Part shown: positions 4,981-31,555 of the stretch, one piece after another | Position numbering within the stretch: the stretch's first letter is position 1 | Layout: each line of letters begins with the position of its first letter | DNA from: Longimicrobiales bacterium | GTDB lineage: Bacteria > Gemmatimonadota > Gemmatimonadetes > Longimicrobiales > Gaopeijiaceae | Reading direction: 5' to 3' | Length of the DNA stretch: 64,000 nt | Assembly: GCA_028279425.1 (NCBI GenBank) | Contig: JANQNV010000295.1 | Span: 1 to 64,000 of the forward strand | Program-made: the position numbers and the translations under genes | Notes under the pieces: generated by a model | The model's database searches: none | Told to the model about the DNA's origin: nothing | Seen by the model: only the letters and a program-made list of their open reading frames with translations

Positions 4981-5075
4981 GGCGGAAGGCCGGTACCCCT
5001 GCCGTGAGAGCCGCGCTTCGCTTCTGCGCCGGTGGCGCAGACCGTCTCTCACGGCAGGGGTTCCGGCCTTCCGCC
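4981..5075. repeat. Long hairpin element, copy 1 (30-base arms, 35-base core)
   Basis: Left arm 4981-5010 and right arm 5046-5075 are complementary at 29 of 30 positions (one mismatch near the middle). The 35-base core 5011-5045 begins CCGCGCTTCGCTTCTGCG, contains its own perfect 7-bp hairpin CTGCGCC/GGCGCAG, and ends GCAGACCGT. Copies with the same core but different arms occur at 7092-7186 and 31362-31555. It starts 24 bases after the BNR gene stop, so it may end that transcript, but it has no T-tract and is much longer than a usual terminator. Confidence 0.85.
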
Positions 5076-5123
5076 TTCCGTGCCGGCGGGGTCGGCTCAG
5101 GCTGGCCGGCACTGGGGGAAGGA

Positions 5124-5369
5124 GCCTCGCGTTGCTCGGCACGGTCTCCCTCGCTTCGCATCGGGGGTGGGGCGCGGCCTCGCGTTGCTCGGCGCGGCTT
5201 TCCTCGCTTCGCGTCGGGGCGCTTTCCTCGCTTCGCATCGGGGCGCTTTCCTCGCTTCGCGTCGGGGCGCTTTCTCGCTTCGCATCGGGGCGGGCCGTGG
5301 CCTCGCGGTGCTCGGCACGGCCTCCCTCGCTTCGCATCGGGGCCTGTGTGCTCGCTTCGCGTCGGGCGG
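5124..5369. repeat. Degenerate tandem array built on CTCGCTTCGCRTCGGG
   Basis: Seven copies of CTCGCTTCGC(A/G)TCGGG start at 5150, 5203, 5227, 5251, 5274, 5326 and 5351, at spacings of 53, 24, 24, 23, 52 and 25 bases. Three copies are preceded by a second block, CTCGCGTTGCTCGGC or near-identical, at about 5126, 5179 and 5301. The rest of 4957-5457 (about 500 bases without a gene) holds the hairpin upstream and the ribosome binding region of the next gene. All frames through it encode only low-complexity Arg/Ser/Ala repeats, so it is not taken as coding. A single partial copy lies next to hairpin copy 2 near 7210. Confidence 0.8.
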
Positions 5370-5457
5370 TGTGGATCCGATTGGCCTTCTGGACGTACTC
5401 GATGGGGCGTGACGGGTGGGTGGGGGTGGGGATCGTACAGGGAAAGGATGAACCGGT

Positions 5458-6879
5458 ATGTTGGGCGAGGTCTTGATGGGGGACAGTCAGCGGGTTGCGG
5501 GTCCGGACGAGAAGGGGTGGGAGCCGGCGTCGTGGCAGCGCTTCGATGCCGCGCAGCAGGCCACGTATCCGGACCTGGAGCAGCTCGGGCTCGCGCTGGA
5601 CGAGCTCGGAGAACTGCCGCCTCTGGTGACCTCGTGGGAAGTGCTCCAGCTGCGGAAGGAGATCGGCGAGGCGCAGCGGGGGGAGCGGTTTCTGCTGCAG
5701 GGGGGAGACTGTGCCGAGAGCTTCGCGGAGTGCACGGCGCCGGTGATCACCAACCGGCTCAAGGTCCTGCTGCAGATGAGCTTGATTCTGGTGCACGGGC
5801 TGCAGATGCCGGTGGTGAGGGTGGGGCGTTTCGCCGGGCAGTATGCCAAGCCGCGCTCCTCGGACACCGAGACGCGCGACGGGGTGACCCTGCCGAGCTA
5901 CCGGGGCGACATCGTCAACGCGCCGGAGTTCACCGCCGAGGCGCGCATGCCGGACCCGCAGCGTTTGATCCGGGCCTACAGCTGTTCGGCGCAGACCATG
6001 AACTTCACCCGCGCGCTGGTCGACGGCGGTTTTGCCGACCTGCACCACCCGGAGTACTGGGATCTGGGCTGGCTCGAGCACTCACCGTTGTCGGAGGAGT
6101 TTCATCGACTCGCGGAGAGCATCGGGCGCGCCGTGCGATTCATGGAGACCATCTCGGGCAAGCAGGCGGGAAGCCTGAGGCGCGTCGACTTCTTCACTTC
6201 GCACGAGGCCCTGCACCTGCACTACGAGCAGGCTCTCACCCGCCGTGTGCCGCGGCAGGACGGCTTCTTCAACCTTGCGACCCACTTCCCCTGGATCGGG
6301 ATGCGCACCGCGTCGGTCGGCAACGCGCATGTGGAGTACATGCGCGGCATTCGCAACCCGATCGGCCTCAAGGTGGGGCCCACCGCCGAGCCGCAGGACC
6401 TGCTCGACCTCATCGAGGTGCTGAACCCGCGGCGCGAGGAGGGCCGCTTGGTGCTGATCCATCGCATGGGTGCGGAGCGCATCGAGGACCGCCTGCCACC
6501 ACTGATTCGAGCGGTGCGCGATTCGGGAAGCCCCGTGTTGTGGATCTCCGACCCGATGCATGGCAACACGGAGTCGACCGCGGGCGGCATCAAGACCCGG
6601 CGCTTCCGCAACATCATGAAGGAGATGGAGCTCGCCTTCGAGGTGCACCGTGACAACGACTCCTTGCTCGGGGGCGTCCACCTCGAGTTGACCGGAGAGA
6701 ACGTCACGGAGTGCACAGGTGGCGCGCGGGACCTGTTGGACACCGACCTCGGGCGCGCCTACAAGTCGCGGGTCGATCCGCGACTCAACTACGAACAGGC
6801 CCTCGAGCTCGCCATGCTGATCGTGCGCAAGCACGGACAGGTGCGCGACGGAAGTCGAGCCGAGGGGACGCCGACATGA
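5458..6879 (+). CDS. 3-deoxy-7-phosphoheptulonate (DAHP) synthase, class II
   Basis: 473 residues, the usual length of plant-type (class II) DAHP synthases, which condense erythrose 4-phosphate with phosphoenolpyruvate as the first step of the shikimate pathway. Motifs: LLQGGDCAESF with the metal-binding Cys, VVRVGRFAGQYAKPRS, FTRALVDGGFADLHHPEYWD, and near the C-terminus ISDPMHGNT and GGVHLELTGENVTECTGG. ATG 5458 follows GGAAAGGA at a good distance; ATG 5476 is an alternative. No separate regulatory ACT domain is seen. The stop overlaps the next small gene (ATGA). Confidence 0.95.
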   Translation: MLGEVLMGDSQRVAGPDEKGWEPASWQRFDAAQQATYPDLEQLGLALDELGELPPLVTSWEVLQLRKEIGEAQRGERFLLQGGDCAESFAECTAPVITNRLKVLLQMSLILVHGLQMPVVRVGRFAGQYAKPRSSDTETRDGVTLPSYRGDIVNAPEFTAEARMPDPQRLIRAYSCSAQTMNFTRALVDGGFADLHHPEYWDLGWLEHSPLSEEFHRLAESIGRAVRFMETISGKQAGSLRRVDFFTSHEALHLHYEQALTRRVPRQDGFFNLATHFPWIGMRTASVGNAHVEYMRGIRNPIGLKVGPTAEPQDLLDLIEVLNPRREEGRLVLIHRMGAERIEDRLPPLIRAVRDSGSPVLWISDPMHGNTESTAGGIKTRRFRNIMKEMELAFEVHRDNDSLLGGVHLELTGENVTECTGGARDLLDTDLGRAYKSRVDPRLNYEQALELAMLIVRKHGQVRDGSRAEGTPT

Positions 6880-7088
6880 CCGACGAACCGTTGGAGGTTC
6901 AGGGTGAGGCCGCCGGTGAGAAGAGCTCGGGTGGCCGCGGGGGGCTCGGGCTCCTGCTCGGCGTCTTCGTGGGTGGGGTCATCTTCGACAGCGTCACCTT
7001 CTCGATCCTGCTCGGGATGATGGGGTTGATCATCGGGTCGCGGGCGAAGGGCGGGCGAGCGGAGGAGACGAAGGACTCGTCGGGGTGA
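6876..7088 (+). CDS. Small membrane protein of unknown function
   Basis: A 70-residue protein whose ATG overlaps the DAHP synthase stop, so it is almost certainly co-translated. After an acidic N-terminal tail and a Gly/Ser linker there is one or two hydrophobic segments (LGLLLGVFVGGVIFDSVTF and ILLGMMGLIIG), then a basic and charged tail. The Gly-rich helix resembles small glycine-zipper membrane proteins, but no family is recognised. A link to aromatic amino acid synthesis is suggested only by position. Confidence 0.65.
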   Translation: MTDEPLEVQGEAAGEKSSGGRGGLGLLLGVFVGGVIFDSVTFSILLGMMGLIIGSRAKGGRAEETKDSSG

Positions 7089-7091
7089 TTC

Positions 7092-7186
7092 GGCAGGAGG
7101 CCGGTACCCCCGCTGTGCGAGCCGCGCTTCGCTTCTGCCCCGGAGGCGCAGACCGTCTCCCACAGCGGGGGTACCGGCCTCCTGCC
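7092..7186. repeat. Long hairpin element, copy 2
   Basis: Arms 7092-7121 and 7157-7186 are complementary at 29 of 30 bases; the 35-base core 7122-7156 matches copy 1 at nearly all positions (CCGCGCTTCGCTTCTG at its start, GCGCAGACCGT at its end). The arms differ from copy 1 at several positions, yet remain self-complementary, showing compensating changes. It lies between a + strand gene ending at 7088 and a - strand gene ending at 7249, so it could act as a two-way terminator here. Confidence 0.85.
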
Positions 7187-7248
7187 TGCGGGCCGTCGGT
7201 CGTCGTTTCGCAGGCCACGGCCCGCTTCGCGTCGGCCCGGGGGGGCTC

Positions 7249-9189
7249 TCAGCCGCCCTCGAAGGTGCCGCGCAGGACGCCGCCGCGGGTCGACAGCAAC
7301 TCCCACGAGCCCGAGACCGCGTCCATCTCGTAGGTGCGGAAGCGGAACTCGACCTCGCGCTCCTCGCCAGGCTGAAGGTAGCCGAGCTCCACGCTGTTGC
7401 CTCCCCGGTCCAGCTCCACGCCGTCCTCCACGAAGCGCACCTGTCCGCCGGAGCCCCCCACCTGAACGCCTCCGTCGAACGACAGCACCAGGCGGTCGGG
7501 GCGCACGACCTTGATGAGGTCGGCTTGGCGGAGCGCCGTGGGGAGTCGGCCGTCGTTGCGCACGGTGAGGGTCAGGGCCCACTCGGTGTAGCCGTCTTCG
7601 GTGCGCACCTCGTGCAGGTCGGCTTCGCCTGCGCCCAGGTGGGGCAGGCTCTGGGCCATGTAGATGTTGAAGAGCGACTGGTTGCGGATCCAGCGCTCGA
7701 GCACCTCGGGCGGACCGTTCTGGCTGAAGAACTTCGGGTGCCATCCTCCGATCTCGACCTCGCCGTGCTCGGGGTGCGTGAACGGCTCCCAGTCCTTGAA
7801 GGGCATGGCGTAGTCACGCCCCGCCGCGACGCTGTCCGACCAGATGAGGCGGTCGAGGTCGTCGGCCTCTCCGTCGCCATTCACGTCGCCCACCCGACCT
7901 CCGTCCCAGAGTTCGTCGCCGTACCAGATGGCCCCGAGATAGAAGTAGCCGAAGTCGGGGCCGTGCCCGAAGAGCGGGCTCCCCGACGCTTCGGGGTTGT
8001 TGCGCGTCCGGTAGGTGTGGTAGACGTCGCCGGCCCAGGGGTAGTTGGTGATCGTCAGTCCCACGCTGTCGAAGTGCTCGTACAGCGCCAGATCCTCCGG
8101 ATACATCCGCTCTTCGGACTTGGAGGTCGAGGGCGGGCGGAGGTGCATGGGTACCCGGGTGTCCATCGAGTTGGCGACGCCGATGTTCGGGTGCTCGAGT
8201 ACGAAGAGCACGACGGAGCGCGTCTCGGGCTCCGACAGCGGGAAGGCGCCCGCGCCGGTCTGGGTCCACCCTCGGCCGGTGTGGTCGCGACCCGGCATGG
8301 GGCGCCAGTTCTCTGGGTAGTTGCGGTGCAGGTCCAGCCCCCCGACTCCGTCTTCGTCGGTGCGACCGTCGCCGTCGTCGTCGAGCCCTTCGCGGGCCAT
8401 CGACCACTGACCGTCTTCGCCGTCCGCGGCAAGCCGCATCAGGCGGCCGGTCGGGTCGCGCTCGTCGAGCACCCAGGCCCCGTCGTCGTCGCGCCAGCGC
8501 ATTTGCAGGATGATGCCGTCTCCATTCAGATCGTTGGCCGGATCTTCGTCGTAGAGTCCGTCGTCGTCGTTGTCGACCGGCCGAACGCTGGACCGATTCG
8601 TCTGCGCCGAATGCAGATACAGGTTCGAGCCGTCGGGGTTGTTCTGCGGGCGCGCGTAGATCGCGGCGCGATCGAGGAGCGCGGTGATCTCGGGGTCGTT
8701 GCCGTATCCCTCCAGCAGACGTTGGATCATCCAGAGAACCGCCTCCGACGACGTGACCTCGCCGGAGTGGCGTCCCCCCTCGAAGAAGGCCGCGGGCTTG
8801 TCGGTGGCCGGCCCGGTCTCGCGGTTGGTCAGGGTGACCTGGAGGATCGGGCGCCCCTCGAGGCTCGTCCCCACCTGGTAGAGCTCGACGAGGTCGGGAT
8901 ACTGGTCAGCCCAACGACGGAGCCACCCGTCCATCACGTCGACGGTGTGGTAGCGATCGAAGGTGAGGGTCGCTCCGATCTCGTACTCGACCTCGGGAAG
9001 CCGCACGCGCGGGAAGTGGCTGGGCCCGTGTCGACCCAACGATTCGAGCACGTAGATGTTCGGGTCGCGCTCGGCTTCGGCGGGCATCGTCGCCGGGGGG
9101 TGATCGGGCACGATGGTCTGGGCAGCGGTGGGCGCGGCCACGGCCAGCGAAAGCGCGGCGACGACGAACGAAAGAGCGATTCGAGGCAC
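7249..9189 (-). CDS. Exported M14-family zinc carboxypeptidase-like metallopeptidase
   Basis: 646 residues from GTG 9189, which has GGAGG just upstream; an upstream frame to 9264 adds no plausible signal. An N-terminal signal peptide (IALSFVVAALSLAVAAPTAAQ) predicts export. The M14 zinc motif is in GGRHSGEVTSSEA (HSGE), followed by the NPDGSN stretch, an insert rich in Asp-Gly-Asp that could bind calcium, and LDLHRNYPENW. A C-terminal Ig-like/beta domain completes it. M14 enzymes remove C-terminal residues or trim peptidoglycan peptides; the substrate here is not predictable. It is divergently placed to the TPR gene at 9306. Confidence 0.88.
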   Translation of the reverse strand: MPRIALSFVVAALSLAVAAPTAAQTIVPDHPPATMPAEAERDPNIYVLESLGRHGPSHFPRVRLPEVEYEIGATLTFDRYHTVDVMDGWLRRWADQYPDLVELYQVGTSLEGRPILQVTLTNRETGPATDKPAAFFEGGRHSGEVTSSEAVLWMIQRLLEGYGNDPEITALLDRAAIYARPQNNPDGSNLYLHSAQTNRSSVRPVDNDDDGLYDEDPANDLNGDGIILQMRWRDDDGAWVLDERDPTGRLMRLAADGEDGQWSMAREGLDDDGDGRTDEDGVGGLDLHRNYPENWRPMPGRDHTGRGWTQTGAGAFPLSEPETRSVVLFVLEHPNIGVANSMDTRVPMHLRPPSTSKSEERMYPEDLALYEHFDSVGLTITNYPWAGDVYHTYRTRNNPEASGSPLFGHGPDFGYFYLGAIWYGDELWDGGRVGDVNGDGEADDLDRLIWSDSVAAGRDYAMPFKDWEPFTHPEHGEVEIGGWHPKFFSQNGPPEVLERWIRNQSLFNIYMAQSLPHLGAGEADLHEVRTEDGYTEWALTLTVRNDGRLPTALRQADLIKVVRPDRLVLSFDGGVQVGGSGGQVRFVEDGVELDRGGNSVELGYLQPGEEREVEFRFRTYEMDAVSGSWELLSTRGGVLRGTFEGG

Positions 9190-9305
9190 CGGATCCTCCG
9201 GTAGAGCGGGATTCAGGGACGACGCGGCAGCTTGCCCCTCGCTCTGGCCGCATGCAAGGGACATCTCGGCGGAACCACGGGCGAGAGGACCGGTACGCCG
9301 TGGCC

Positions 9306-10073
9306 ATGATCAAAGACGACAGACCCCAACGGGCGAACCGGCCACCTTCAGAACACGACGTACCGGGCCGCGCGCCGTGGATGGCTGCCCTCGCCCTCGC
9401 AGCCGTGATCCTGGGGCTCTTTCCGGGGCGGGCCTCCGCGCAGATCACCGTAGCCGATATCTCGAGCACCCACACCTCATCGCTCCTGGCCCGCATCGAA
9501 CGCCATGTGGACGATGCCGTTCTGGCCGAAGTCGACGACATCCGGGACTCCCACCTCGCTGCCGGTGAACAGCTCGCGCGCTCGCTGGTGAAGCAGGAGC
9601 CCGAGTCGGCTGACGCGCACTACTGGCTGGGTGTCGTCCTGGGGATCCGCACCGAAAACACGGGAGGACTGGGGAAGTTGAACCTCGGACGAGAGGTCTT
9701 CGGGATCTCCGTGCGGGTGTTGGAACTCGACTCTCTGCACGCCGGAGGGCAGGAGCTGATGGGTCGGGTTCACGCCAATATTCAGCGGCTCAATTGGGTG
9801 ACACGCAGGATCGCTCTGAGTGGCGACGTGGGCGACCGGGTCGGGGATTCGTCGTGGGAGTTGGCCATCGCCTACTTCGAACGCGCCTGCCAGTTGGACC
9901 CGGGCGCGCTGGCGCCTCGCATCGAGCTCGCCCGCATCCACCTCGAACGCGACGACCCGGCGAAGGGCCGCGGGCTGCTCGAGGAGGTGCTCGCCCGGGA
10001 GCCGACCACGCTCGTCGAGGAGCGCATGCTGGAGGAGGCGGCGCGCCTCCTGCGGGAGCACGGGCAAGGGTGA
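9306..10073 (+). CDS. Exported tetratricopeptide-repeat protein
   Basis: 255 residues starting at ATG 9306 with a long N-region and a signal peptide or membrane anchor (MAALALAAVILGLFPGRASA). Helical repeats follow: SADAHYWLGVVLGIRT, then AIAYFERACQLDPGALAPRIELARIHLERDDPAKG, which read as TPR units. The layout resembles periplasmic TPR proteins of the RMDN/TRAP-associated kind, probably a protein-protein scaffold. No enzymatic motif is present. An in-frame GTG at 9300 is an alternative start. Confidence 0.75.
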   Translation: MIKDDRPQRANRPPSEHDVPGRAPWMAALALAAVILGLFPGRASAQITVADISSTHTSSLLARIERHVDDAVLAEVDDIRDSHLAAGEQLARSLVKQEPESADAHYWLGVVLGIRTENTGGLGKLNLGREVFGISVRVLELDSLHAGGQELMGRVHANIQRLNWVTRRIALSGDVGDRVGDSSWELAIAYFERACQLDPGALAPRIELARIHLERDDPAKGRGLLEEVLAREPTTLVEERMLEEAARLLREHGQG

Positions 10074-10251
10074 GGTCGGGGCCGGGTGATGGCGCCCACC
10101 GCGACGCGTGGAGTCCCCGCGGCATGCGCCCGACCGTGGGGTAGCTCGGATCCCGCGCCGAGCGGCAGTTGGGAGTCTCGCTGGCTGGCGCGTATGGTGG
10201 GTTGGTCCGTAAGGTCAGGTCCATCCCTCATCCGCAGAACGAGAGGCCGCC

Positions 10252-13020
10252 GTGTTCATGCGCCATCCCTTCGTCCGCGTCGCGCTGTTCGTCTTCGCCG
10301 CCCCCCTCCTCATGGCCGGATGCGGCGGCGACGATGGTGGAACGGAGCCGGATCCGGTGACGATCTCGGTCAACCCGTCGACTCTGACACTCTTCGTGGG
10401 TGACACCGACGCCCTCACGGCCGATGTCTCCGGTGCCAGTGGAGCTTCCGTGGATTGGTCGTCGTCGGCGTCGGCGGTCGCCACGGTGTCGGGGTCGGGA
10501 TTGGTGACGGCGGTGGGCCTCGGTTCTGCCACGATCACCGCCTCGGTCGCCGGTGAGGGCGTGTCGGCCGTCGTCGACGTCACCGTGCGGGCGTCGACGA
10601 TCACAGTGGAGCCTGCCAGCGCTGAGATCGAGGTCGACGAGACCGTACAGCTCGCGGCCACCGTCACGGGCGGCAGCGGGCTCACCGTCTCATGGGTGTC
10701 GGCCGACGACGCCGTCGCCACGGTCGACGGCGCCGGTACGGTGACCGGAGTCGCGTCCGGTACGGTCGACGTCACGGCCTCGGTCGACGGACAGCCCGGC
10801 GTCGAGGCCACCGCGTCGGTCCGGGTCACGGAGCCTCCCAGCATCTCCAACGTCGAGTTCGTCGACGGCCAGGGGCTGCCCTTGGATCTCAACGACATCG
10901 GTGATGTGATCGCCGTGAGCTTCGACGTGGAGGGGGAGGCGGGTACAGCCGTCGAGGTCGACCTGCAGGTGGGCGACGTGGTGCTGGCGTCGGAGACCGT
11001 CACCATTGCCGCGGCGCCCGGACTCCCGGCAGGTTTGGGTGCAGCCCGGGGTCGGACGCGAGTCGACCTCGAGGGCGCCACTCCGGTCGTATCCTTGACG
11101 ACCGATCAGGTCGAGGAACTCGCCGCGGGGGCGCAAGACGTATCGCTGCTCCTCAACGGTATCGCCGGGGTCACGACCGAAGGCACGGTCAATCCGAGCC
11201 CCCACCTCTTCCTGCGTGGCGTGAACGCGAACACACTCGTGCTCGTGAACGGGCGCCGGGTGACCAACACCGACATGGCGCTCACGGCCAACCTGGCCTT
11301 CGCCTCGCAGATCGAGCGGATCGAGGTGCTGGCGGACGGGTCGTCGGCGGTGTATGGGGCCGACGCGGTCGGGGGCGTGGTCAACTTCATCCTGAAGGCC
11401 GAGAATCGGTCGGGATCCGGGCCGACCACGTTTGCATCGGTCACCGGATACGACGCCGACGACAACCCCTACGATATTCGTATCGGCACGGCCGACCTGG
11501 TGCGAGGCGGGACCCTGGAGGAGGCTCCAGACTTCGACGGTGAAGATCCGGTCTACGATGGACCCTTCGAGACCTCCGACCCGTGGTTCGTGGGCTCCGA
11601 GGCGGGCTATGAGGTGCCCCTCTACCAGCGCGCTGCCTGGAGGCTCGACCGGTGGGGCGACTACTCGGGGATCGCGGCGCACGACTTCGACGTTGCGGCC
11701 GCGTCCACGCCCACGGACTGGAGTTACGCCGGGGTCACGACGGGAGCCGACCTGACGGGGCTGGATGGGCTCCCCTTCCTCATCCGGACGCGCGCCACGG
11801 ACCCCTTCGGCCAGTACGCTTCGCGCACGCTTCTGAACAGCGCGAACGGTCAGCCGTTCATGGCCTACGCCGACTTGACGCCCCCGGCGATCCATGTCGC
11901 GCCGGGCGGCATCCAGCCCTACACACTGGGTCTCGGTGCGACGGGGGTCTTCGGGCTGGGCACGACGAACACACCGGGCGCCGACGGACCGGCTCGCTCC
12001 GACCTCGACACCGGCTCGGCGCTGGGCCGAGTGCGCTACGACACCCCCACCGGCTCCGTGTACCTGCGTGGGAGCGCCGAGGAGTTCACGTCGTCGTGGG
12101 ACGTCTTCGGTGGGGGGGTGACCTTCGACTTCGAGTCGCTTGGGCCTGGAGTGGCCCGCGGTGAATTCAGCATCGCCGACGGGGCCGGCAACCGCGCCTC
12201 GATGCAGATCGACGGGGTCTACAACCCGAACCCCACGCGGGTCGAGGATCTGACGGTGAGCGGGACGTACGATCCCACGTTCACCCTCAGCCTCCGGGCT
12301 ACGTTCTTCGACGACCTCGACGTGCTCTTCGGCGCCCCCTTCGTCCGTTACGACGGGGTGGTCGGTGGGACCGCGCCCCTCTACATGATTCCCGGGTTCC
12401 TCATGACCGGCGACGGCTTCGACGACCAGCTCACCCGCGAGGGCACCTTCGACTTCCAGATCGACGCCGCCCCCCACGTGATTCAACTCACCGAGACGTC
12501 GTTCCCTCAGGAGCCCAATGGGCAGCGTTTCCCCGCCAGCGTCATCGGCGTCGGGGCCTTCAACTCCGGGGGCAACTTTTCGTGGGCCGACGAATCGGTC
12601 GACGGGCGGTACAATCTCACGGATCGGGTGTTCGGGACGCAGGGTGACGACCACTACGAAGTCGTGACCGGCCCCTCCATTTTGTACAACGCCTTCGGAA
12701 ACCCCTCCTGCACGCTCCCCCAGAGCCACGACTTCGAGCTCCTTGCGTACACGTCGGGCACGTTCCCTGCCAACCGGGCGCAGCTCCTCTACCGAAAGAG
12801 CCTGCCGGGCGACCTGAATGTGGCATTGCCGGCCGGCGACCCCGTGGATCTCACGGTCATCGACCGCGGAGGGTTTTTCGAAGGTCAGGCCTCGACGACC
12901 CTCGATGCGACGTTGCTGAACCTCCCGCCGGACGTCATCGGGGTTCAGTGGCTGTTGATGTCGATCTTTGGAGAAGCGTTGCTGACGCCCATTTCTCCGT
13001 TCGAAGTCGTCCCGTGTTGA
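10252..13020 (+). CDS. Lipoprotein with two Big_2 Ig-like domains and a TonB-plug-like insert
   Basis: 922 residues. A lipobox (LLMAGCGG) follows the signal sequence. Residues ~35-105 and ~115-195 are two bacterial Ig-like (Big_2) domains, each with the VTVSGSGLVTAVGLG-type turn. Residues ~318-385 (11203-11410) closely resemble the TonB-dependent receptor plug: FLRGVNANTLVLVNGRR, then QIERIEVLADGSSAVYGADA and GGVVNFILK. No outer-membrane beta-barrel follows; the C-terminal ~530 residues are Gly/Asp-rich beta structure with no family recognised. GTG 10252 has GAGAGG 6 bases upstream; ATG 10258 is the alternative. Probably surface or periplasmic; function unknown. Confidence 0.8.
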   Translation: MFMRHPFVRVALFVFAAPLLMAGCGGDDGGTEPDPVTISVNPSTLTLFVGDTDALTADVSGASGASVDWSSSASAVATVSGSGLVTAVGLGSATITASVAGEGVSAVVDVTVRASTITVEPASAEIEVDETVQLAATVTGGSGLTVSWVSADDAVATVDGAGTVTGVASGTVDVTASVDGQPGVEATASVRVTEPPSISNVEFVDGQGLPLDLNDIGDVIAVSFDVEGEAGTAVEVDLQVGDVVLASETVTIAAAPGLPAGLGAARGRTRVDLEGATPVVSLTTDQVEELAAGAQDVSLLLNGIAGVTTEGTVNPSPHLFLRGVNANTLVLVNGRRVTNTDMALTANLAFASQIERIEVLADGSSAVYGADAVGGVVNFILKAENRSGSGPTTFASVTGYDADDNPYDIRIGTADLVRGGTLEEAPDFDGEDPVYDGPFETSDPWFVGSEAGYEVPLYQRAAWRLDRWGDYSGIAAHDFDVAAASTPTDWSYAGVTTGADLTGLDGLPFLIRTRATDPFGQYASRTLLNSANGQPFMAYADLTPPAIHVAPGGIQPYTLGLGATGVFGLGTTNTPGADGPARSDLDTGSALGRVRYDTPTGSVYLRGSAEEFTSSWDVFGGGVTFDFESLGPGVARGEFSIADGAGNRASMQIDGVYNPNPTRVEDLTVSGTYDPTFTLSLRATFFDDLDVLFGAPFVRYDGVVGGTAPLYMIPGFLMTGDGFDDQLTREGTFDFQIDAAPHVIQLTETSFPQEPNGQRFPASVIGVGAFNSGGNFSWADESVDGRYNLTDRVFGTQGDDHYEVVTGPSILYNAFGNPSCTLPQSHDFELLAYTSGTFPANRAQLLYRKSLPGDLNVALPAGDPVDLTVIDRGGFFEGQASTTLDATLLNLPPDVIGVQWLLMSIFGEALLTPISPFEVVPC

Positions 13021-13023
13021 GCC

Positions 13024-13236
13024 TCAGCCCAGAAACTCTAGCCCCGGGACGCGCTCGAGCTCTTCCCAGCGGCCTCGTGCCACCTGGAGTTGTACCCCGC
13101 TGCTGAGAACGACATGCGCCGCCTCCATCCCGGTGCCGTTCAAGGACCTTGATTCGGTCCAGATTCCCTCGCCGTCGAGAGGGAGCCACGTCGGAGGGCC
13201 CGCGGACGGGGCCCTCCGACCGTGGTCCGGTCGCGA
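13024..13236 (-). other. Stop-free segment in frame with the PQQ dehydrogenase, after its stop
   Basis: On the - strand the frame of the dehydrogenase stays open for 70 codons after its TAG (13237-13239) up to a TGA at 13024-13026. An ATG at 13128 would give a 34-residue peptide beginning MEAAHVVLSSG and ending GLEFLG. Codon use looks coding-like, but the first half of the segment is the terminator hairpin. It may be the remnant of a longer C-terminus, a tiny separate gene, or chance in GC-rich DNA. Nothing else is seen in 13021-13236. Confidence 0.25.
13190..13220 (-). terminator. Strong hairpin between convergent genes
   Basis: Perfect 12-bp inverted repeat GTCGGAGGGCCC (13190-13201) / GGGCCCTCCGAC (13209-13220) with a 7-base loop, 16 bases after the PQQ dehydrogenase stop. 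No T-tract, but the position suits transcription termination for the - strand gene, and possibly for the + strand gene ending at 13020. Confidence 0.6.
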
Positions 13237-15339
13237 CTACTCAGGCAAGGCGTAGGCGATCAGGCCGCTGGACTGCTGGACGAGCACGTACTGGCGACCC
13301 TCGTGCACCCAGCCCGACATGCCGTAGCGGCTCGTGGCCGGGATCGACACGGCGCCCACGCGCTCCCCGGTCGCCTTGTCGAGGCCGAAGATGAAGGGAT
13401 CTCCGGCAGAGTCCTGACCGCTCGCGATGACGAGCTCCGGTGTCACGATCATGGCCGAGTGGCCCCCGCGACCGCGATTGACCTCGATGTCGAGGCCCTG
13501 AAGGAGCGGGTGGTTGCGAATCGCCTCCTGTTCTTCGGCCGGTGCGTCACCGTGGGGGATCACCCAGAGGTACTCCCCGGTGTTCATGTCGATCGCGCTG
13601 ATTCGGCCCCGCGGACCGTCGAAGATGAAGTCCGGGGGCAGTCCCTCGAACGGGTTCTCTACCGTGGGCCGCGGCGGGCGCGGGCCCGAACCAGGGGCGG
13701 CGGTGGCGAAGTCGACGACGGTCTTCCCGGTCTGGTTCGGGTTGTCGCGCAGGGATCCCGCATCGAGGTAGGTGCGGGTGCAGCCGGAGTGCGAGGTGAT
13801 GAACATGACGCCCGAGGTGGGGTCGGCGACGGCCGGGCCGGTGATGTTGACTCCGCCGGTGTTGCCCGGACAGATGTTGGCGCCTCCGAGCCCGTTGTCG
13901 TTGCCCTCGTACGTGGGCGGATTGAAGAGCGGCACGAACTGATTCGTGGCCTCCGCGTACTCGAGCGCGAGCGCCCGGATGTCGGGCGTGTAGTCGATCA
14001 GCTGCTCCTCGGTGCGTCCCTGCAGGTCGAAGGGTGCCGGCCAGGTCGGGAAGGGCTGGGTGGGCGAAAGCTGCTCTCCCGGGACGCCCGACTGGGGTAC
14101 TTCCCGGTCTTCGATCGGCCAGATGGGCTCACCCGTCTCCCGGTTCAGCGCGTAGACCCACGCCTGCTTGGTGGCCTGGAAGATTCCCGGGATCTCCTCG
14201 CCGTCGACCGTCACGTCCATCAGGACCGGCGCGGTGGGGGTGTCGTAGTTCCAGATGTCGTGCCGCACCATCTGGAAGTGCCAGGCCCGCTCCCCGGTGC
14301 GCACGTCGAGGGCGATCAGACTGGTCGAGAACAGGTTGTCGCCCGGGCGGAAGCCACCGTACCAGTCCATCGTGGCGCCATTCGTCGGAATGTAGACGAG
14401 CCCACGCTCGGGGTCGGCCGCCAACGGCGCCCACGACGATATGTCGCCCGTCCACTGCCAGGCGTCGTTCTCCCACGTCTCGTGACCCACTTCACCGGGC
14501 CTCGGAATGACGTGGAACTTCCAGAGGAGCTCGCCCGTCCTCGCATCGTAGCCGAGGATATCGCCGGGCACGTTTTCGATGCGGGACTGGTTGTAGCCCT
14601 GCTCGGCGGAGTTGCTGATGACCACGACATCGTTCACGACGATCGGAGGCGACGAAGCCGTGATGTAGCCCAGCTCGAGGGGGAGCCCCCGGTCGGGATC
14701 GTAGGTGCCGCCAGCGGCCACGTGGGCCTCCCACGGCCCCCAATCCTGGATCAGATCCTCGACCATGTCGACGACCCCCGACTCGGGGAATCCGTCGATG
14801 TCGACGCTCCGCCCCCATCCCTCGAGGTGATCGCCGGTTTCGGCGTCGATGGCGTGCAGGAAGAAGCCCGGGGTGGAGATGTAGATCACCTTGCGGCCGT
14901 CGATCTCACCGTAGGCCACGCCCTTGCCGTAGCCCGAGCGCATGGAGTACTCGAAGCGCGCCGTCTCCGGCTCCCGGTAGCTCCACTTCATCTCGCCCGT
15001 GCCGGCGTCGAGTGCGACCACACTTCTGTGGCGCCCGGCCACGGTGTAGAGCGTGCCGTCGACGTAGCTCGGGGTCGAGCGCATGATCGACGCTCCAGTG
15101 CCGAAACTCGCACCATTCCACTCCCACGCGACTTCGAGGTCGTCGAAGTTGGATGCGGTGATCTGACTGGCGGGGAGGTAGCGGGTGTGCCAGGCGTCGC
15201 CGCCCAGATAGTGCCACTGCCCGTCTTCGGTGCCCGGTCCCTGCGCTACTCCGACCGTCGGGGCAGCGAGGAACGCCCCCAACCCTGCGACCAAACTGAG
15301 CCGGCTGAGCCGGCGGGACGCCCTGATCCCGTTGTGCAT
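13237..15339 (-). CDS. Exported PQQ-dependent (quinoprotein) dehydrogenase
   Basis: 700 residues from ATG 15339, preceded by GGAGGCAC; the frame extends further upstream but without signal-like sequence. A basic N-terminus with a signal ([20 protein letters not shown]) predicts periplasmic location. The mature start ([14 protein letters not shown]) and repeated tryptophan-docking stretches ([40 protein letters not shown]) mark an eight-bladed quinoprotein propeller of the glucose/alcohol dehydrogenase kind. No C-terminal cytochrome c (CxxCH) is fused. It would oxidise an alcohol or sugar using PQQ and pass electrons to the respiratory chain; no PQQ synthesis genes are in the window. Confidence 0.85.
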
Positions 15340-15588
15340 CTGCGTGCCTCCAGAGGGTGCCACACTCGTTGGACGAAGCGTCCGATCGCGCGCCTCGTCT
15401 TTCCAGCGGGACATAGTACGCGGTGCCCCGGTTCAGCGCACCGCCCGGCCCACCCCCGGGCGCACCGGGGAGCGGCGGTCCGGTCGCCGAATCGGGCCGG
15501 GAATCGGTTGACACGGGCGCGCGGCGGGGCGCACACTGCGCTCGTTCTCGTCAGGTACAGTCGCCCAGAATTCCCATGCACTCCCACG

Positions 15589-16062
15589 ATGGAGTCCCGC
15601 GTGCGTAGCTCGGTTTTCGTGCTCTTGCTCGGGCTGGGTCTGCTCAGCCCTCAGGTTCTGGTCGCCCAGGCCGACGACGCCGGTGTGGTCTCGTTCTTCT
15701 CGGCGATCGGCGAAGGACTCTCGGAGGGCGAGGTCTTCGCCATCGACGCGGCGTCCTTCGCGGCCCTGCTGCGCGACGATCTGGACCCGGCCCTCACCGC
15801 CGACGCCGTGGAGGATCTGCTCGGCCCGGACTTCCGCTACGGCCCGATTGATCGATGGGTCTCGTGCGGTGGTGACGCCCCCTGCGAGATGGCCCATCGC
15901 GGCGTTCACGTGGCCCTCCTCGGTGTCTCGGCCAACGACGAGAGCGACGAGATCGCGCTGCGCCTGGCCCGCACCGGGGGGGAGGACGGAGGCGTGTGGA
16001 GGAGCTTCGGATCGATGCGGGTGCAGAACAGCGACGGGGTGTGGCGCGTGGTCTCGAGGTAG
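15589..16062 (+). CDS. Exported protein of unknown function
   Basis: 157 residues from ATG 15589 (GTG 15601 possible). It has a clear signal peptide (SSVFVLLLGLGLLSPQVLVAQ). The mature part, with an FFSAIGEGLSEGEVF start, one Cys pair (SCGGDAPCEM) that may form a disulphide and a DGVWRVVSR end, looks like a compact alpha+beta domain resembling DUF4440/NTF2-like exported proteins, but this is only a resemblance. It is convergent with the gene at 16078, 15 bases away. Confidence 0.65.
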   Translation: MESRVRSSVFVLLLGLGLLSPQVLVAQADDAGVVSFFSAIGEGLSEGEVFAIDAASFAALLRDDLDPALTADAVEDLLGPDFRYGPIDRWVSCGGDAPCEMAHRGVHVALLGVSANDESDEIALRLARTGGEDGGVWRSFGSMRVQNSDGVWRVVSR

Positions 16063-16077
16063 GGGCGGCGAGGCGCG

Positions 16078-16950
16078 TCAGGGACGGCCGTCGTCGGGTG
16101 GGGCGGGGGTGTAGCGCGTGATCCGAGCGCGCCCGTCGCCGCCCTCGTCGACGATCGTGAGTACGGCCGGGGCCTCGATCATGACGCCCTCGGCTTGTCG
16201 GTGCCGGGAGGGGAGCCGCTCGTGGTCTACGACGTGCCCGGTGGCCGAGATGTGCACGATGCGTCGCTGACGGGCGGCGACCACCCACCACCCGTCGCCG
16301 TCGGGCGCGGCCGTCAAACCCGAGGGGGAGATCCGGCCGATGTCGGCCTCGTCGAGTTGGTCGGGGGTGACGAGCGCGCGAGGGGCAACCGGTAGCCGCG
16401 GCATCTCGAGGTCGTCGCCCTCGCCCGGGATCGCTACCTCGAGAATCGCGAGGTGCCGGCGCCACGGCCGGTGGATCACCGTCTTGCACGCCATCAGAAG
16501 CCGGTCGGTGTCGGGGTCGAACATCAACCCCTCGACCTCGCAGATGTCGTCTGCCGCGGTTCTGCGGACCGCGTAGCCCGCCACGGATTCGGTCGTGCCG
16601 GGCTCGAACGAGACGAGCGTACCGGTACTCGTGGTCAGGTGGAAGCGACGCCCGTCCCACGCCAGACCCTCGAAGTCGCCGCGCAGCGGCTCGGGTCCGA
16701 GCACCCGCCTCTCGAGAATCGCGTCGCCGGAGTCTTCGAGCCGGTAGATGATCCCGCGCTCGTCGTCGTGGGCCCAGAGTCGTCCGGAGGCGTCGAGCGC
16801 GAGACCCGACACCTCCTGGAGTTCGGAGGGCAGTCGGGCCCGCTCGTCATCACCTTCCAACCACCCTTCGAGGGAGTCGCTCGTCAGCCATCCGGCGGCC
16901 AGGAGCGAGGGGGCGAACAGGACCGAGAGGACGGCGCGGAGGTGGATCAC
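16078..16950 (-). CDS. SdiA-regulated / phytase-esterase-like beta-propeller protein
   Basis: About 290 residues from GTG 16950; ATG codons at 17034 and 17022 in frame are possible starts. The N-terminus is hydrophobic (AVLSVLFAPSLLAAGW), so it is exported or anchored. The body has the SdiA-regulated/esterase-like-phytase signature: EVSGLALDASGRLWAHDDERG, GDFEGLAWDGRRFHL, CEVEGLMFDPDTDRLLMACK, then SGLTAAPDGDGWWVVAARQRRI. Such propellers are periplasmic, with unknown ligand. Convergent with 15589-16062. Confidence 0.75.
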   Translation of the reverse strand: MIHLRAVLSVLFAPSLLAAGWLTSDSLEGWLEGDDERARLPSELQEVSGLALDASGRLWAHDDERGIIYRLEDSGDAILERRVLGPEPLRGDFEGLAWDGRRFHLTTSTGTLVSFEPGTTESVAGYAVRRTAADDICEVEGLMFDPDTDRLLMACKTVIHRPWRRHLAILEVAIPGEGDDLEMPRLPVAPRALVTPDQLDEADIGRISPSGLTAAPDGDGWWVVAARQRRIVHISATGHVVDHERLPSRHRQAEGVMIEAPAVLTIVDEGGDGRARITRYTPAPPDDGRP

Positions 16951-18580: not shown

Positions 18581-18582
18581 CG

Positions 18583-18604: not shown

Positions 18605-19766
18605 ACTGCCGTAACGGACCCCATCCCTGCAGCCACACCTGGTTGAACTCGGGGCGGGTGGTGAGCCGCACGGCTGCGCCCCCGCTCGAGGGCACCCGGT
18701 AGAGCTCGAAGTTGCCGTCCCGGTCCGACATGAAGACCACCGACGACCCGTCGGGCGACCAGACCGGAGACCGGTCGAGCCCCGCATCCGCGACCAGCGG
18801 CTGGACGTTGCCCCCGTCGATGTTCATGGTGAACAGGTCGAAGGTGCCGTTGCGATTCGATGCGAAGGCGATGGCGGTGCCGTCCCACGACCATGCGGCC
18901 TGTGCGTCGACGGCGGGGTCGTCGGTGAGGGCCACCACGTCGGTGCCGTCGGTGGCCATCGTGTAGACCTCCGTGTCACCGTCCCGGTCGCTGACGAAGG
19001 CGATCCGGGTCCCGGCCGGTGACCACGAGGGCTGACTGTCGAAGCCGGGGGCGTTGGTGAGCCGGCGGACGTCCGTGCCATCGGCCGCCATGGTGTAGAC
19101 CTCCTGGTTGCCATCCCGGGTGCTGACGAAGGCGATGCGGGCGCCGTCGGGCGACCAGCTGGGTTCGCGGTCCTGCGCAGCGTCGGTGGTGAGGCGGGTG
19201 AGGCCCGTGCCGTCGGCGCCGACGACGTAGATGTCTTCATTGCCCGACAGGAGTGCGGTGAAGACGATCCGCGTCCCGTCGCGGCTCACCGCGGCGAACG
19301 AGTCGGTCCCGTCGGTCGAAGGGATCCGCTCGATGCCCGATCCATCGGGATTCATCCGGTGCAGGTCGTTGCCTGTGCCCAGCCCCGCATCGGCCGTGAA
19401 CACGATCTGATCGAAGAGGGCGAGGGGGCAGGTCACGTCGAAGCGGGTCTCGGCGGCTGCTCCGGCGCTCACCGCAACCGAGAGGGACTCCTCGTCCACA
19501 GCACAGTTCACCTGCAACCCGCGGATCTCCACGATGTAGGTGCCCGGGGCTACGGCGTCGAAGACCACCGCGCCGTCGGTGGCGACAGCGCGGCCGGGGC
19601 CCCCGTCGAGCGACAGGGTGTAGCCGTCTGCGTCGGGGGTCGCGCCCGCGGTGGCGACGACGACACGGATCGAGCCCGGCTCGTCGGGGGAGGGTTCGGC
19701 GGGGTCGTCGCCGCAGGCGAGGAGGGTGGCGGCAGACAACGTGAGCGTGAGGCGGGTGCGGAGCAT
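18603..19766 (-). CDS. TolB-like WD40 (PD40) beta-propeller lipoprotein
   Basis: 387 residues. Lipobox LSAATLLACGD sets it as a lipoprotein. Residues ~30-110 form a small beta-sandwich with a carboxypeptidase-regulatory-like look. From ~115 on there are six repeats of the PD40 type (SWSPDGARIAFVSTRDGNQEVY, SWSPAGTRIAFVSDRDGDTEVY and so on), as in TolB propellers. Unlike TolB it is a lipoprotein and is not next to Pal. Probably a periplasmic binding or scaffold protein. Confidence 0.85.
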   Translation of the reverse strand: MLRTRLTLTLSAATLLACGDDPAEPSPDEPGSIRVVVATAGATPDADGYTLSLDGGPGRAVATDGAVVFDAVAPGTYIVEIRGLQVNCAVDEESLSVAVSAGAAAETRFDVTCPLALFDQIVFTADAGLGTGNDLHRMNPDGSGIERIPSTDGTDSFAAVSRDGTRIVFTALLSGNEDIYVVGADGTGLTRLTTDAAQDREPSWSPDGARIAFVSTRDGNQEVYTMAADGTDVRRLTNAPGFDSQPSWSPAGTRIAFVSDRDGDTEVYTMATDGTDVVALTDDPAVDAQAAWSWDGTAIAFASNRNGTFDLFTMNIDGGNVQPLVADAGLDRSPVWSPDGSSVVFMSDRDGNFELYRVPSSGGAAVRLTTRPEFNQVWLQGWGPLRQ

Positions 19767-19817
19767 GAGTCTGGGGCGCGATGGGGGTGAAGAGGGCAGG
19801 CGCAGGGTGGGCGTGGC

Positions 19818-21014
19818 TCAGCCCGGCCACCCCTCCTGCGGCATCCCCGGCATGAGTCGCACGGCGTTCTCGAAGTACACCTTGCGCAGCACCTCGTCGG
19901 GGAGGTCGATGCCGTAGAGCTTCCAGTAGGCGTGGTAGTCGCGGTAGTAGTCGAAGTACTCGTCGGCCGTCTCGAGCACACGCCAGTAGTAGGGGTACTC
20001 GCCGGGCTGGAAGGCATCCTTGCCGAAGAGTATCCGGTCCTGGTAGCGCACGAAGAAGTCGTGCGCCCCGCGCGGCTGGCGTCCGATGTCGTAGAGCACC
20101 GCACCGATCTCGGTGTACACGTTGGGGTTCTCGTCGAGAAGGCGTCCCAGCGCCCCCAGGTCGTTGGCCTGCCATCCCAGATGGGCCGTGACGAAGGTGG
20201 TGTTGGGGTGCCGACGGAAGAGGTTGTCGCGCTCCTCGATGAGCTGCTCGAACGAGGGGAATCGGTCGGAGGGGTAGCGGCGGTTCGGGAAGAGCCCCAG
20301 CTCGAGCCAGCGCTCGTTGGTGTTGTCGAAGGGCTGGAAGAACTCGGCGGGATCGCCCGTGTGGATGAATACGGGCAGCCCCAGTCGACCCGCCGCCTCC
20401 CAGATCGGGTCGAGGTCCGGATCGTCGATCGCCAGGCGGGATCCGTCGGCCTTTCGAATCCCCAGTCCCAGTCCCTTGCTGATTTCCCCGATCGCCACGG
20501 CGCCGGCGGCGGCGTCGGCTTCCAGCTGCGCGACGGCGCGCTCGGCCCACCCCGGCCCGACGTTGCTGAAGTTGATCCCCGTCATGACCCGCACGCGGTC
20601 GGGCCAGGGGGAGGCCGCGATGGCCTCGACCGCCTGCACCAGTGCCTCACCCGAGACGTTGTTGGCCGCGATCATCACCCCGACGTTGAGCTCGTCCATC
20701 ACCGCGACCAGCTGCTCCAGCGCCTCGGGGCTCGTGAAGCCGCGCGGATGGCCGTGGAAATCCACCGCCGGATACTTCGCCCGCGGCACGAGGTTCTCGT
20801 CGGTCACGAGGGTCGATTCGGGGCGGTAGTCCACGATGCTCGGGGGCGACACCTGCGGCGTCTGACACCGACCGGGGCGCACCAGGGTCATCCCCTCGGG
20901 GCAGGGCTCCCCGGGCTGTACGGTGGTCGACGCCCCACCGCCGGGCTGCGCGGCGAGCGGGGCCGCGAGGGCGGCGATGATCAGGACAGAGGCGGCGGCG
21001 TGCATCCCGTTCAT
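19818..21014 (-). CDS. Exported amidohydrolase (amidohydrolase-2 family)
   Basis: 398 residues from ATG 21014, preceded by GAGGAA; ATG 21005 is alternative. A signal (ASVLIIAALAAPLAAQ) precedes a TIM-barrel metal-dependent hydrolase: AVDFHGHPRGF carries the metal His pair, then LPVFIHTGDPAEFFQP, TFVTAHLGWQANDLG and the late Asp region RILFGKDAF. Relatives are often annotated TIM-barrel hydrolases or amidohydrolase 2, acting on cyclic amides or as decarboxylases. Substrate unknown; an extracytoplasmic location is unusual but common in this phylum's annotations. Confidence 0.85.
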   Translation of the reverse strand: MNGMHAAASVLIIAALAAPLAAQPGGGASTTVQPGEPCPEGMTLVRPGRCQTPQVSPPSIVDYRPESTLVTDENLVPRAKYPAVDFHGHPRGFTSPEALEQLVAVMDELNVGVMIAANNVSGEALVQAVEAIAASPWPDRVRVMTGINFSNVGPGWAERAVAQLEADAAAGAVAIGEISKGLGLGIRKADGSRLAIDDPDLDPIWEAAGRLGLPVFIHTGDPAEFFQPFDNTNERWLELGLFPNRRYPSDRFPSFEQLIEERDNLFRRHPNTTFVTAHLGWQANDLGALGRLLDENPNVYTEIGAVLYDIGRQPRGAHDFFVRYQDRILFGKDAFQPGEYPYYWRVLETADEYFDYYRDYHAYWKLYGIDLPDEVLRKVYFENAVRLMPGMPQEGWPG

Positions 21015-28220: not shown

Positions 28221-28267
28221 CCGACGTCCCCGCGACCGCTCCGGCCGAGCGGTAACGGGGACGTCGG
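28221..28267. terminator. Nested hairpin terminator between convergent genes
   Basis: Outer arms CCGACGTCCCCG (28221-28232) and CGGGGACGTCGG (28256-28267) pair perfectly over 12 bp; an inner perfect 7-bp stem ACCGCTC/GAGCGGT lies inside. It fills the 65-base gap between the peroxidase and the convergent propeller gene, so it likely serves both. Confidence 0.75.
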
Positions 28268-29552: not shown

Positions 29553-29555
29553 TTC

Positions 29556-29915: not shown

Positions 29916-29964
29916 GAACGACGACGCGGCCGAACCTCGATCGTCGCGAGAACCGCCGGCAGGG

Positions 29965-30387
29965 TCAGCCGCCGACGAGGGTCTCGGCGAATTCCACCAG
30001 GAGTGCCGTCGCCTGCCGCGACGAAAGCGTGAGGGGGTTGAGCGCGGCGTGCTCGGCGTGGCGGAGCACCACACCCGGGTTCACCCGGCTCACCTCGACC
30101 CGCCCCATGCGCCAGTTGGCGAAGCTGCGCTCGTGAATCTCGTCGTACGCGAGGAGCGTCACCTGCTCGTGGCGCGGATCACATACGATGTGTCCGTACA
30201 ACGCGTTGACCTGCGCGCGGCCGCCCTCGATGGCCTGAAGAAACGTATTCGTGTCCTCGCAGGCGCATAGCATCCCCGTGATCCCCGCGTCTGCGTTGGA
30301 GGCGCGGGACTGATCCATGATGGTGTCGAGCAACTTCTGGTCGATCGGCTCGACCGACCGGCTGGCATACACGAGTCGGACGAGCAT
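29965..30387 (-). CDS. BLUF-domain blue-light photoreceptor
   Basis: 140 residues, a short stand-alone BLUF protein. The flavin site is intact: Tyr7 (LVYASR), Asn31 (NADAGITGML), Gln51 (FLQAIEGGR), Trp92 and Met94 (NWRMGRVEV), with spacings close to AppA. BLUF proteins bind FAD and signal blue light through hydrogen-bond changes around the Gln. There is no fused output domain; the ~40-residue tail is helical. Its ATG shares one base with the folE stop (TGATG), so it is translated together with GTP cyclohydrolase I. Confidence 0.93.
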   Translation of the reverse strand: MLVRLVYASRSVEPIDQKLLDTIMDQSRASNADAGITGMLCACEDTNTFLQAIEGGRAQVNALYGHIVCDPRHEQVTLLAYDEIHERSFANWRMGRVEVSRVNPGVVLRHAEHAALNPLTLSSRQATALLVEFAETLVGG

Positions 30388-31100
30388 CAGCGACCCCCTT
30401 CCTGTTGGTTGGCGAGGAGCGCGAGGAATTCCCTACGCAGCGCCTCGTTCTTCAGGAACGAACCGCGCATGACGCTGTTCGTCATCTTCGAGTCCATGTC
30501 GCGCACCCCACGCCACTGCATGCAGAAGTGGTCGGCCTTCATGACGATCGCGAGCCCGTCGGGCCGCATCTTGTCCTGCAGGGTGTCGGCCAGCTGGGCG
30601 ATGGCCTCTTCCTGGATCTGAGGGCGCGACACGATCCACTCGACGAGGCGGGCGTACTTCGAAAGCCCGATGAGGTCGGAACTCTCATTGGGCAGCACTC
30701 CGACCCACACCTTTCCGATGATGGGGCAGAGGTGGTGGGAGCAGGCGCTGCGGACCGTGAGCGGCCCCACGACCATCAATTCGCTCAGCCCCGATACGTT
30801 CGGGAAGGCCGTGATCGGAGGCGGGGCCACGTAGCGACCCGCGAACACCTCGCGCACGAACATCTTCGCGACCCGCTTGGCGGTGTCCCGGGTGTTGTGG
30901 TCGTTGTCGGTATCGATCACCAGCGCCCGCAGTACGTCTTGCAGCGCGGTCTGCACTTCGCCCTGGATCGCATCGAGCTCACCCTCCTCGAGGATGTCGG
31001 CGATGTTGTCGTTGGCGAAGAAGCGTCGCCCCTGCGCCACGAGGCGCGCCCGGACGCGGTCGGCGACCGGAGAAGGGCTTTGCTGGGGGGCGTCGGCCAT
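30387..31100 (-). CDS. folE: GTP cyclohydrolase I
   Basis: 237 residues from ATG 31100; a longer frame to 31187 is rejected as Arg-rich leader. It converts GTP to 7,8-dihydroneopterin triphosphate for folate and pterin synthesis. Zinc ligands are visible: Cys120 and His123 (RSACSHHLCPIIGK) and Cys193 (ADHFCMQWRGV). The N-terminal ~30 residues are low-complexity, then RDTAKRVAKMFVREVFAGRY is the usual helix. It overlaps the BLUF gene by one base. The upstream side is the duplicated hairpin element at 31337-31555. Confidence 0.95.
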   Translation of the reverse strand: MADAPQQSPSPVADRVRARLVAQGRRFFANDNIADILEEGELDAIQGEVQTALQDVLRALVIDTDNDHNTRDTAKRVAKMFVREVFAGRYVAPPPITAFPNVSGLSELMVVGPLTVRSACSHHLCPIIGKVWVGVLPNESSDLIGLSKYARLVEWIVSRPQIQEEAIAQLADTLQDKMRPDGLAIVMKADHFCMQWRGVRDMDSKMTNSVMRGSFLKNEALRREFLALLANQQEGGR

Positions 31101-31336
31101 GGGAGCGGGGGATTGGTGGGGACGGGTCGCCCAGTGGGCGCACGTGCGACGTGCTCTGCGTCCCAGAGGACCCGCGTGTCGGCGCATAGGTCCATCGGAG
31201 CTCGACCGGTGCTGCGTCGGTTGGGGTCGGGAGGGAGGATGGGGAGGCGGCCTGACCTACCGGCTAGGTGGCCCGACCGCCGCGACACCGCCGCCCCGCC
31301 AAGGTGCGCGCAATCAGCACGCAAACCGGCCCCACC

Positions 31337-31555
31337 CCGAAGCCGGGAGCCCGAGCCAGAAGCGGAGGAGAGAGAGGGGCCCCCTCCGGAGACGGTCTGC
31401 GCCAACGGCGCGGAAGCGAAGCGCGGCTCCGGCCTCAACCCGAAGCCGGGAGCCCGAGCCAGAAGCGGAGGAGAGAGGGGCCCCCTCCGGAGACGGTCTG
31501 CGCGCAGCGCAGAAGCGAAGCGCGGCTCCGGAGGGGGCCCCTCTCTCTCCTCCGC
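31337..31555. repeat. Tandemly duplicated long hairpin element, copies 3A and 3B
   Basis: Unit A starts at 31337 and unit B at 31438, 101 bases apart and nearly identical. Each has the core seen at 4981 and 7092 in the opposite orientation: ACGGTCTGCGC at 31392 (A, 35 bases) and 31493 (B, 33 bases), both ending GAAGCGAAGCGCGG. B is flanked by complementary arms (about 31465-31492 and 31526-31555), differing by one GA unit. A has a left arm (31362-31391) but only 6 bases of a right arm; that left arm is a perfect 30-base complement of the right arm of B. The arm sequence is unrelated to copies 1 and 2. The remainder of 31101-31560 shows no gene. Confidence 0.85.

Follow-up and report, generated by a model that had tools for sequence, protein, structure and literature searches.

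A lineage-restricted family of hairpins with a constrained tip and self-complementary, mostly locus-specific arms at gene ends in Gemmatimonadota

Introduction

Repetitive extragenic palindromic (REP) elements, as PMC3733652 describes them, have stems of 5-13 bp where the end tag is GTAG and of 8-9 bp where it is CGTC, the tag itself being unpaired. They are among the closest described counterparts of a hairpin family that we report here from a 64,000-nt stretch of DNA (hereafter the window) of a Longimicrobiales bacterium (phylum Gemmatimonadota; GenBank assembly GCA_028279425.1, contig JANQNV010000295.1), in which a shared core at the tip is held between arms that pair with one another and mostly differ from locus to locus. 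Like the REP elements of that account, the hairpins are extragenic palindromes that lie for the most part 3' of genes, in many cases between convergent ones, and sometimes form inverted pairs. Unlike them, they have arms of 20-39 nt (in a scan that required long stems) that are mostly locus-specific, a constrained tip and no consistent end tag, GTAG occurring near the foot of 6 and CGTC near that of 1 of the 39 hairpins counted here, which are the fetched loci with a long ungapped stem. A REP-like mobile element with a linked REP-associated tyrosine transposase (RAYT) was among the candidates of the original prediction, which had been made from the window alone; the Y1 transposase family PF01797 was found in none of the six genomes of the window's genus (G000-G005) and in 2 of the 23 genomes searched, one match being a fragment and some of the genomes being incomplete. 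Judged by the length of the stem, the tag at its end and the link to a RAYT, the hairpins are not REP elements, and the extragenic position 3' of genes is common to both.

With Rho-independent (intrinsic) terminators the family shares a GC-rich hairpin a few bases past the stop codon, and an orthologous site in two relatives holds coreless hairpins; it differs from them in its long stem, in a tip that is both constrained and branched, and in the T-tract, which is absent from all 39 hairpins. Because the T-tract is lacking they are not canonical intrinsic terminators, and what survives of the large terminator that had been proposed is the position past stop codons together with the coreless hairpins of the two relatives, which suggest a putative terminator-like role. 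Unlike the ends of an insertion sequence or of a miniature inverted-repeat transposable element, the hairpins do not share a terminal inverted repeat: mean arm identity over all pairs in the window's genus (g1) is 0.54, and the exceptions are genus g4 and the pair at 5 and 7 kb of the window, which have related arms. The RNA hairpins maintained by template switching that are treated in PMC8794818 resemble the present ones in that multi-base compensatory changes keep the stems paired; those cases are RNA genes, with reconstructed ribosomal RNA (rRNA) histories, whereas ours lie outside genes, at gene ends, and combine long arms with a constrained tip. Searches of the open-access literature did not find this gene-end signal described, and neither PMC3733652 nor PMC12306157 contains the string 'Gemmatimon' in its main text.

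Structure and covariation of the hairpins

The hairpin family is real, restricted to one lineage and situated at gene ends. The original prediction reported the same core between self-complementary arms at 5, 7 and 31 kb of the window, and it is present at all three loci (Table 1); the pairing and core length given for the first two copies were both reproduced. Comparison of the arms bears out that those at 31 kb are unrelated in sequence to those at 5 and 7 kb, which are related to each other (24/30 pairs identical). The 31 kb locus had been read as one hairpin with perfectly paired arms, and this pairing does exist (31362-31391 with 31526-31555, 30/30, and 90% in an extended 41-nt version), but it links the arms of two separate units, of which one is a complete hairpin and the other its partial tandem copy; the tandem duplication at 31362-31555 is partial, the hairpin unit being about 100 bp long.

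Nor is the core a coincidental GC-rich match, since the pattern of its start, with up to 3 mismatches, has 4 matches in the window against 0.09 expected, which is beyond chance. The pattern of the core end taken alone (3 mismatches allowed) gives 14 matches against 9.1 expected and is not above chance; its three exact matches and one 1-mismatch match are the four cores. Long hairpins were also sought throughout the 64 kb without use of the motif, and of the four returned three are the core-tipped hairpins 1-3. The fourth, at 28221-28267, is coreless and has 19/21 pairs and a loop of 5.

The tip is predicted to form a three-way junction between the long stem (P1), a tiny hairpin GCTTCGC (P2) and a second, variable and covarying hairpin (P3). 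Across genera the tip sequence beside P3 is close to CGCTTCGCT, and in the window's genus the tip mostly ends CGTCTC. Six hairpins of the source genome were folded as RNA and have z scores of -6.7 to -11.6, none of 200 shuffles folding as well. The junction appears in the RNA folds of three of the six copies (5 kb, C324 and C190) and, by minimum energy, in the DNA folds of all six strands (four hairpins), although the small hairpin is lost from the DNA fold centroid in three of these strands. Read on the antisense strand the tip is GCGAAGC, and d(GCGAAGC) is an unusually stable DNA mini-hairpin. P3 loops have the form TNC in 26 of the 39 called in a set of 40 hairpins, in which L040:1708 is spurious, L089 is uncalled and L114 and the window copy at 7092 have the wrong stem; a preference for T-N-C triloops, read as G-N-A on the antisense strand or as UNCG in RNA, was considered only tentatively. 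A corresponding count of P2 loops is circular, because the hairpins were selected by GCT[TGA]CGC.

Complementarity persists while the sequence of the arms changes. In six aligned copies of the source genome both sides have changed at 19 of the 23 P1 pairs, one-sided departures occur at none of the standard pairs, and 96.1% of cells are paired, compared with 73.4% in shuffles (unpaired cells 8/204). An alignment of 21 sequences, which was fitted to the structure and therefore leans towards it, has double changes at 21/23 P1 pairs and 8/8 P3 pairs with 94.1% of cells paired, a proportion that falls to 41-51% when the partner is shifted by 1-3 columns. Its covariation score is reached by none of 500 shuffles, and four of the five measures exceed all 500. 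The conserved core with changing but complementary arms, as first noticed in the window, extends to other species, whose copies keep their arms complementary. The constrained part is the tip, and the sequence of the stem is free provided that pairing holds.

The median arm length of the 39 hairpins, which are a subset of the 55 model matches described below, is 23 nt, and 14 of the 39 have no mismatch; the copy at secA of G010 has 12 ungapped pairs. The arms of the set of 40, whose spurious entry (L040:1708) is dropped from the set of 39 hairpins, make 1030 pairs, comprising 988 Watson-Crick, 8 G-U, 14 A-C and 20 other pairs. A structured RNA had also been proposed for these loci, and the covariation of P3 and an orientation that follows the gene agree with it; a search of the window against Rfam 15 at the gathering score gave two matches, both tRNA and neither at a hairpin site, and there is no G-U excess.

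Distribution among genomes

The window is part of contig C71 of the source genome (G000), which consists of 5.4 Mb in 339 contigs. The 15-base pattern of the core start occurs nine times in this genome, four times on C71, twice on C219 and once each on C32, C190 and C324; C32 and C219 appear to end inside one and the same copy, as an overlap of contig ends. On C190 (L006 1405-1590) a core-tipped hairpin occupies the apex of another copy, which is older and diverged but keeps outer arms that pair when folded as DNA.

A covariance model built from 21 matches was searched against 96 genomes of the Gemmatimonadota family to which the source genome belongs, and 13 of them yielded 55 matches (E <= 0.01). 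In a wider search of 298 genomes of the phylum (E <= 1e-4) 7 had matches, and every one of these belongs to that family. These figures are minimum numbers, because only the best 15 to 150 candidates per genome were scored, with strict filters. Weak matches of a first model beyond the family (E 0.25-0.97 under a threshold of E <= 1; G035, G036, G041, G044 and G045) were viewed through the hairpin scan alone and taken as chance. The exact core pattern occurs at 23 places over genome_contigs (84,980 species), and the arms are paired only in two Gemmatimonadota records, JAUIEJ01 and JAHHMJ01 (25/25 and 23/25); at the remaining 21 places, two of them interrupted by a contig end, 4-15 of 25 arm bases pair. 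A phage origin was rejected, the exact core pattern yielding 0 matches in viral contigs. In genus g4 (L061, L065 and L041) inverted pairs of hairpins lie about 0.4-1.1 kb apart, with arms common to several loci and spacers that are similar too, and resemble a dispersed composite repeat.

Position at gene ends and turnover of the arms

Of the 39 hairpins, to which a simple gene finder was applied, 34 have a known upstream gene. This gene is on the same strand in 24/34 cases, and in 21/34 the hairpin stands no more than 80 nt past the sense stop; the 7 kb copy brings this to 22, having gone uncounted because its 70-aa gene is below the length filter. At convergent sites 13 of 14 hairpins are nearer to the sense stop, and the exception returned by the script is again the 7 kb copy. 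Several inverted pairs are present, which are partly explained by convergent genes that each have a hairpin of their own. Hairpins 1, 2 and 3 of the window follow their stop codons by 24, 3 and 5 nt, respectively.

The same gene ends are occupied in different species. The sortilin-like gene of hairpin 1 has a core-tipped hairpin at its 3' end in G000, G001 and G004; in G002 and G003 the hairpin at this position is coreless, its RNA fold having a loop of 6 (z -2.7) and of 3 (z -3.6), respectively. The aldehyde dehydrogenase (ALDH) gene of hairpin 3 ends in a core-tipped hairpin in G000 and G001, and further occupied ortholog pairs are found at dcd (G000, G002) and at ompA-family and marR-family genes (both G001, G002). 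At the 3' end of secA the model matches in genus g4 (G067, G098 and, in part, G086) and in genus g6 (G010, G069). The secA 3' end of G008 (L142) has a coreless, apparently rearranged hairpin that looks like the fused arms of two hairpin types.

Across six orthologous pairs within the window's genus arm identity is 0.48-0.61, compared with the genus-wide mean over all pairs given above (95th percentile 0.66); two secA pairs in other genera reach 0.66 and 0.70. From these identities it follows that arm sequence has largely been lost at orthologous sites, the core and the pairing being kept. A foldback copy of the target flank made at insertion was tried as the origin of the arms and rejected for the sortilin site, whose 5' arms in G000, G001 and G004 are no more alike than background, so that the arms there are not simply ancestral flank. 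At ALDH, where the 5' arms are more alike, such a copy of one flank may be their origin.

Maintenance of complementarity

The two arms clearly change in concert. When similar hairpins were joined in a spanning tree, 352 pairs showed 25 doubles and 13 singles, the latter being under-counted as detection by pairing favours doubles; with the 3' changes permuted, the mean number of doubles is 6.8 and the maximum 14 (2000 permutations). The original prediction held that a fixed loop on changing but complementary arms implies either selection on the stem or some mechanism that copies it; the findings support these two as alternatives, and we retain selection and/or template-switch copying jointly.

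A self-perfecting DNA palindrome would dispense with selection. According to this explanation, which we regard as possible but distinctly tentative, the stable foldback tip folds the nascent or template strand and template switching copies arm onto arm, so that mutations are spread or erased and complementarity is a by-product of mutation and not of selection on RNA. The excess of doubles over the permutations fits it, as do the close orthologues L042 and L092 (flanks 91-94% identical), where hairpin 1 differs by 3 double transversions without singles; hairpin 2 of the same loci, read by eye, differs by 1 double and 4 singles, which speaks against it. On the 12 closest edges of the tree (identity 0.85 or more) 9 singles stand beside 10 doubles, so intermediates persist, and L112 and L115 differ by single changes only, favouring stepwise selection. 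On 11 of these edges, the L042/L092 edge having fallen narrowly outside a script's cut, the figures are 7 doubles and 9 singles; the count on all 12 leans slightly towards copying. The bias of detection towards doubles weighs the other way, and so does the proportion of transition-type doubles (14/25), which resembles that in rRNA, for which 61% of instantaneous changes are reported as transition-type (PMC8794818). Mismatches of the A-C type, which are no rarer than G-U, the tandem copy at 31 kb, the nested copy on C190, the GCGAAGC mini-hairpin of the antisense tip and the precedent in PMC8794818 all speak for a self-perfecting palindrome, which by itself nevertheless leaves the constrained tip and the orientation towards gene 3' ends unexplained. 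An equally tentative proposal is that the tip is the inherited unit and has colonised terminator positions, and that hairpin-primed template switching rewrites the arms, which would turn over near-neutrally while the structure is held.

Features of the window

The coordinates of the hairpins and of the genes that they follow are collected in Table 1.

Table 1 Hairpins of the window and the genes at whose 3' ends they stand
Feature	Position	Strand	Details
Hairpin 1	4981-5075	+	5' arm 4981-5010, core 5011-5045 (35 nt), 3' arm 5046-5075; arms 29/30 paired
Hairpin 2	7092-7186	+	5' arm 7092-7121, core 7122-7156 (35 nt), 3' arm 7157-7186; arms 29/30 paired
Hairpin 3	31465-31555	-	5' arm 31526-31555, core 31493-31525 (33 nt), 3' arm 31465-31492 (28 nt)
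Partial tandem copy of hairpin 3	31362-31432	-	6-nt remnant of 5' arm, core 31392-31426, 3' arm 31362-31391
Gene with hairpin 1 at 3' end	1813-4956	+	Sortilin-Vps10 domain; stop codon 4954-4956
70-aa open reading frame with hairpin 2 at 3' end	6876-7088	+	No Pfam match; stop codon 7086-7088
ALDH gene with hairpin 3 at 3' end	31561-33972	-	Stop codon 31561-31563

Just 3' of hairpin 1, at 5150-5366, lie seven exact copies of CTCGCTTCGCRTCGGG on the + strand, and an eighth copy with 2 mismatches is found at 7221 (0.44 expected by chance at 2 mismatches). It is a second short repeat that contains GCTTCGC, and similar repeats lie 3' of hairpins in L105 and L108. The window also carries a selenocysteine tRNA gene at 35240-35332.

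Discussion

The explanation that we favour, and to which we give about an even chance, is that of a gene-3'-end hairpin family which is mostly inherited in place, occupies terminator-like positions, has a constrained tip and serves a role at the 3' ends of transcripts. It draws on structure prediction, covariation, position, orientation, orthology and arm turnover, from which we infer the 3'-end function; the gene-end role is proposed mainly because the hairpins stand at sites where relatives have hairpins. The hairpins would then most likely be transcript 3'-end structures that stop or pause the polymerase without a U-tract and/or shield the 3' end of the mRNA, and the tip would be a specific recognition or folding element. 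Complementarity would be kept by selection on pairing, with template switching between the arms during DNA synthesis helping selection to do so.

A number of observations weigh against this. The sortilin-like gene of G005 has no comparable hairpin (RNA fold z -0.4), the core is absent at ALDH in G002 and G005, and among 30 secA loci, 23 of them with a recognisable C-terminus, the core is present in only 3 (G069, G010 and G067); the remaining 20 secA ends comprise 2 with too little flank and 18 coreless ones, G008 included. By these absences the hairpin is dispensable. Turnover is incomplete at ALDH, where a crude alignment of the G000 and G001 5' arms has 19/30 identical bases, and the copies dispersed through genus g4, which have arms in common, imply some mobility. 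The upstream gene is on the opposite strand for 10/34 hairpins, some of which are second hairpins in inverted pairs (C219, L042). TTTT does not occur within the next 12 nt after any of the 39 hairpins, and in a consensus scan of window positions 1-20000 terminator-like sites are no commoner than in shuffles, so that the terminator signals of the source genome are poorly known. A purely RNA-level constraint would predict an excess of G-U mismatches, and none is seen (8 G-U against 14 A-C). The fifth covariation measure, of further pair types, is matched by 55/500 shuffles, and mismatched copies are under-counted as the hairpins were detected through pairing.

Other explanations fare worse than inheritance in place. 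A REP-like mobile element, in which core and arms form a small palindrome that is moved by a transposase and lands 3' of genes, would account for the extragenic location, the inverted pairs and the dispersed g4 copies; we consider it unlikely in view of a Y1 transposase found in none of the six genomes of the genus, of the lack of a consistent end tag, of stems that mostly differ between copies and of the occupation of the same gene ends across species. We find it more improbable still that the core is a small insertion which entered the apex of pre-existing terminator hairpins, the arms being old host stems: the coreless hairpins at the sortilin-like site of G002 and G003 and the C190 hairpin that occupies an older copy's apex are what it would lead one to expect, but the window holds only one coreless stem of such length (19/21), and the sortilin-site arms of three species resemble one another no more than background. 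Coincidence or an assembly artefact was suggested by contigs C32, C219 and C56 of the fragmented assembly, which start at or near matches; it is already refuted by the hairpins of independent assemblies, the single-contig G002 among them, and by the restriction of paired arms to the 2 Gemmatimonadota places among the 23 with the exact core pattern.

Conclusions

Two answers have been proposed to the question of how long stems keep their pairing as their sequence changes, namely selection acting through mismatched intermediates and copying by template switching (PMC8794818). In the present family the same gene end carries unrelated yet complementary arms in different species, and does so at several genes; the two answers can therefore be distinguished by strain-level sequencing. 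The hairpins would, moreover, mark a gene-end signal in a GC-rich phylum.

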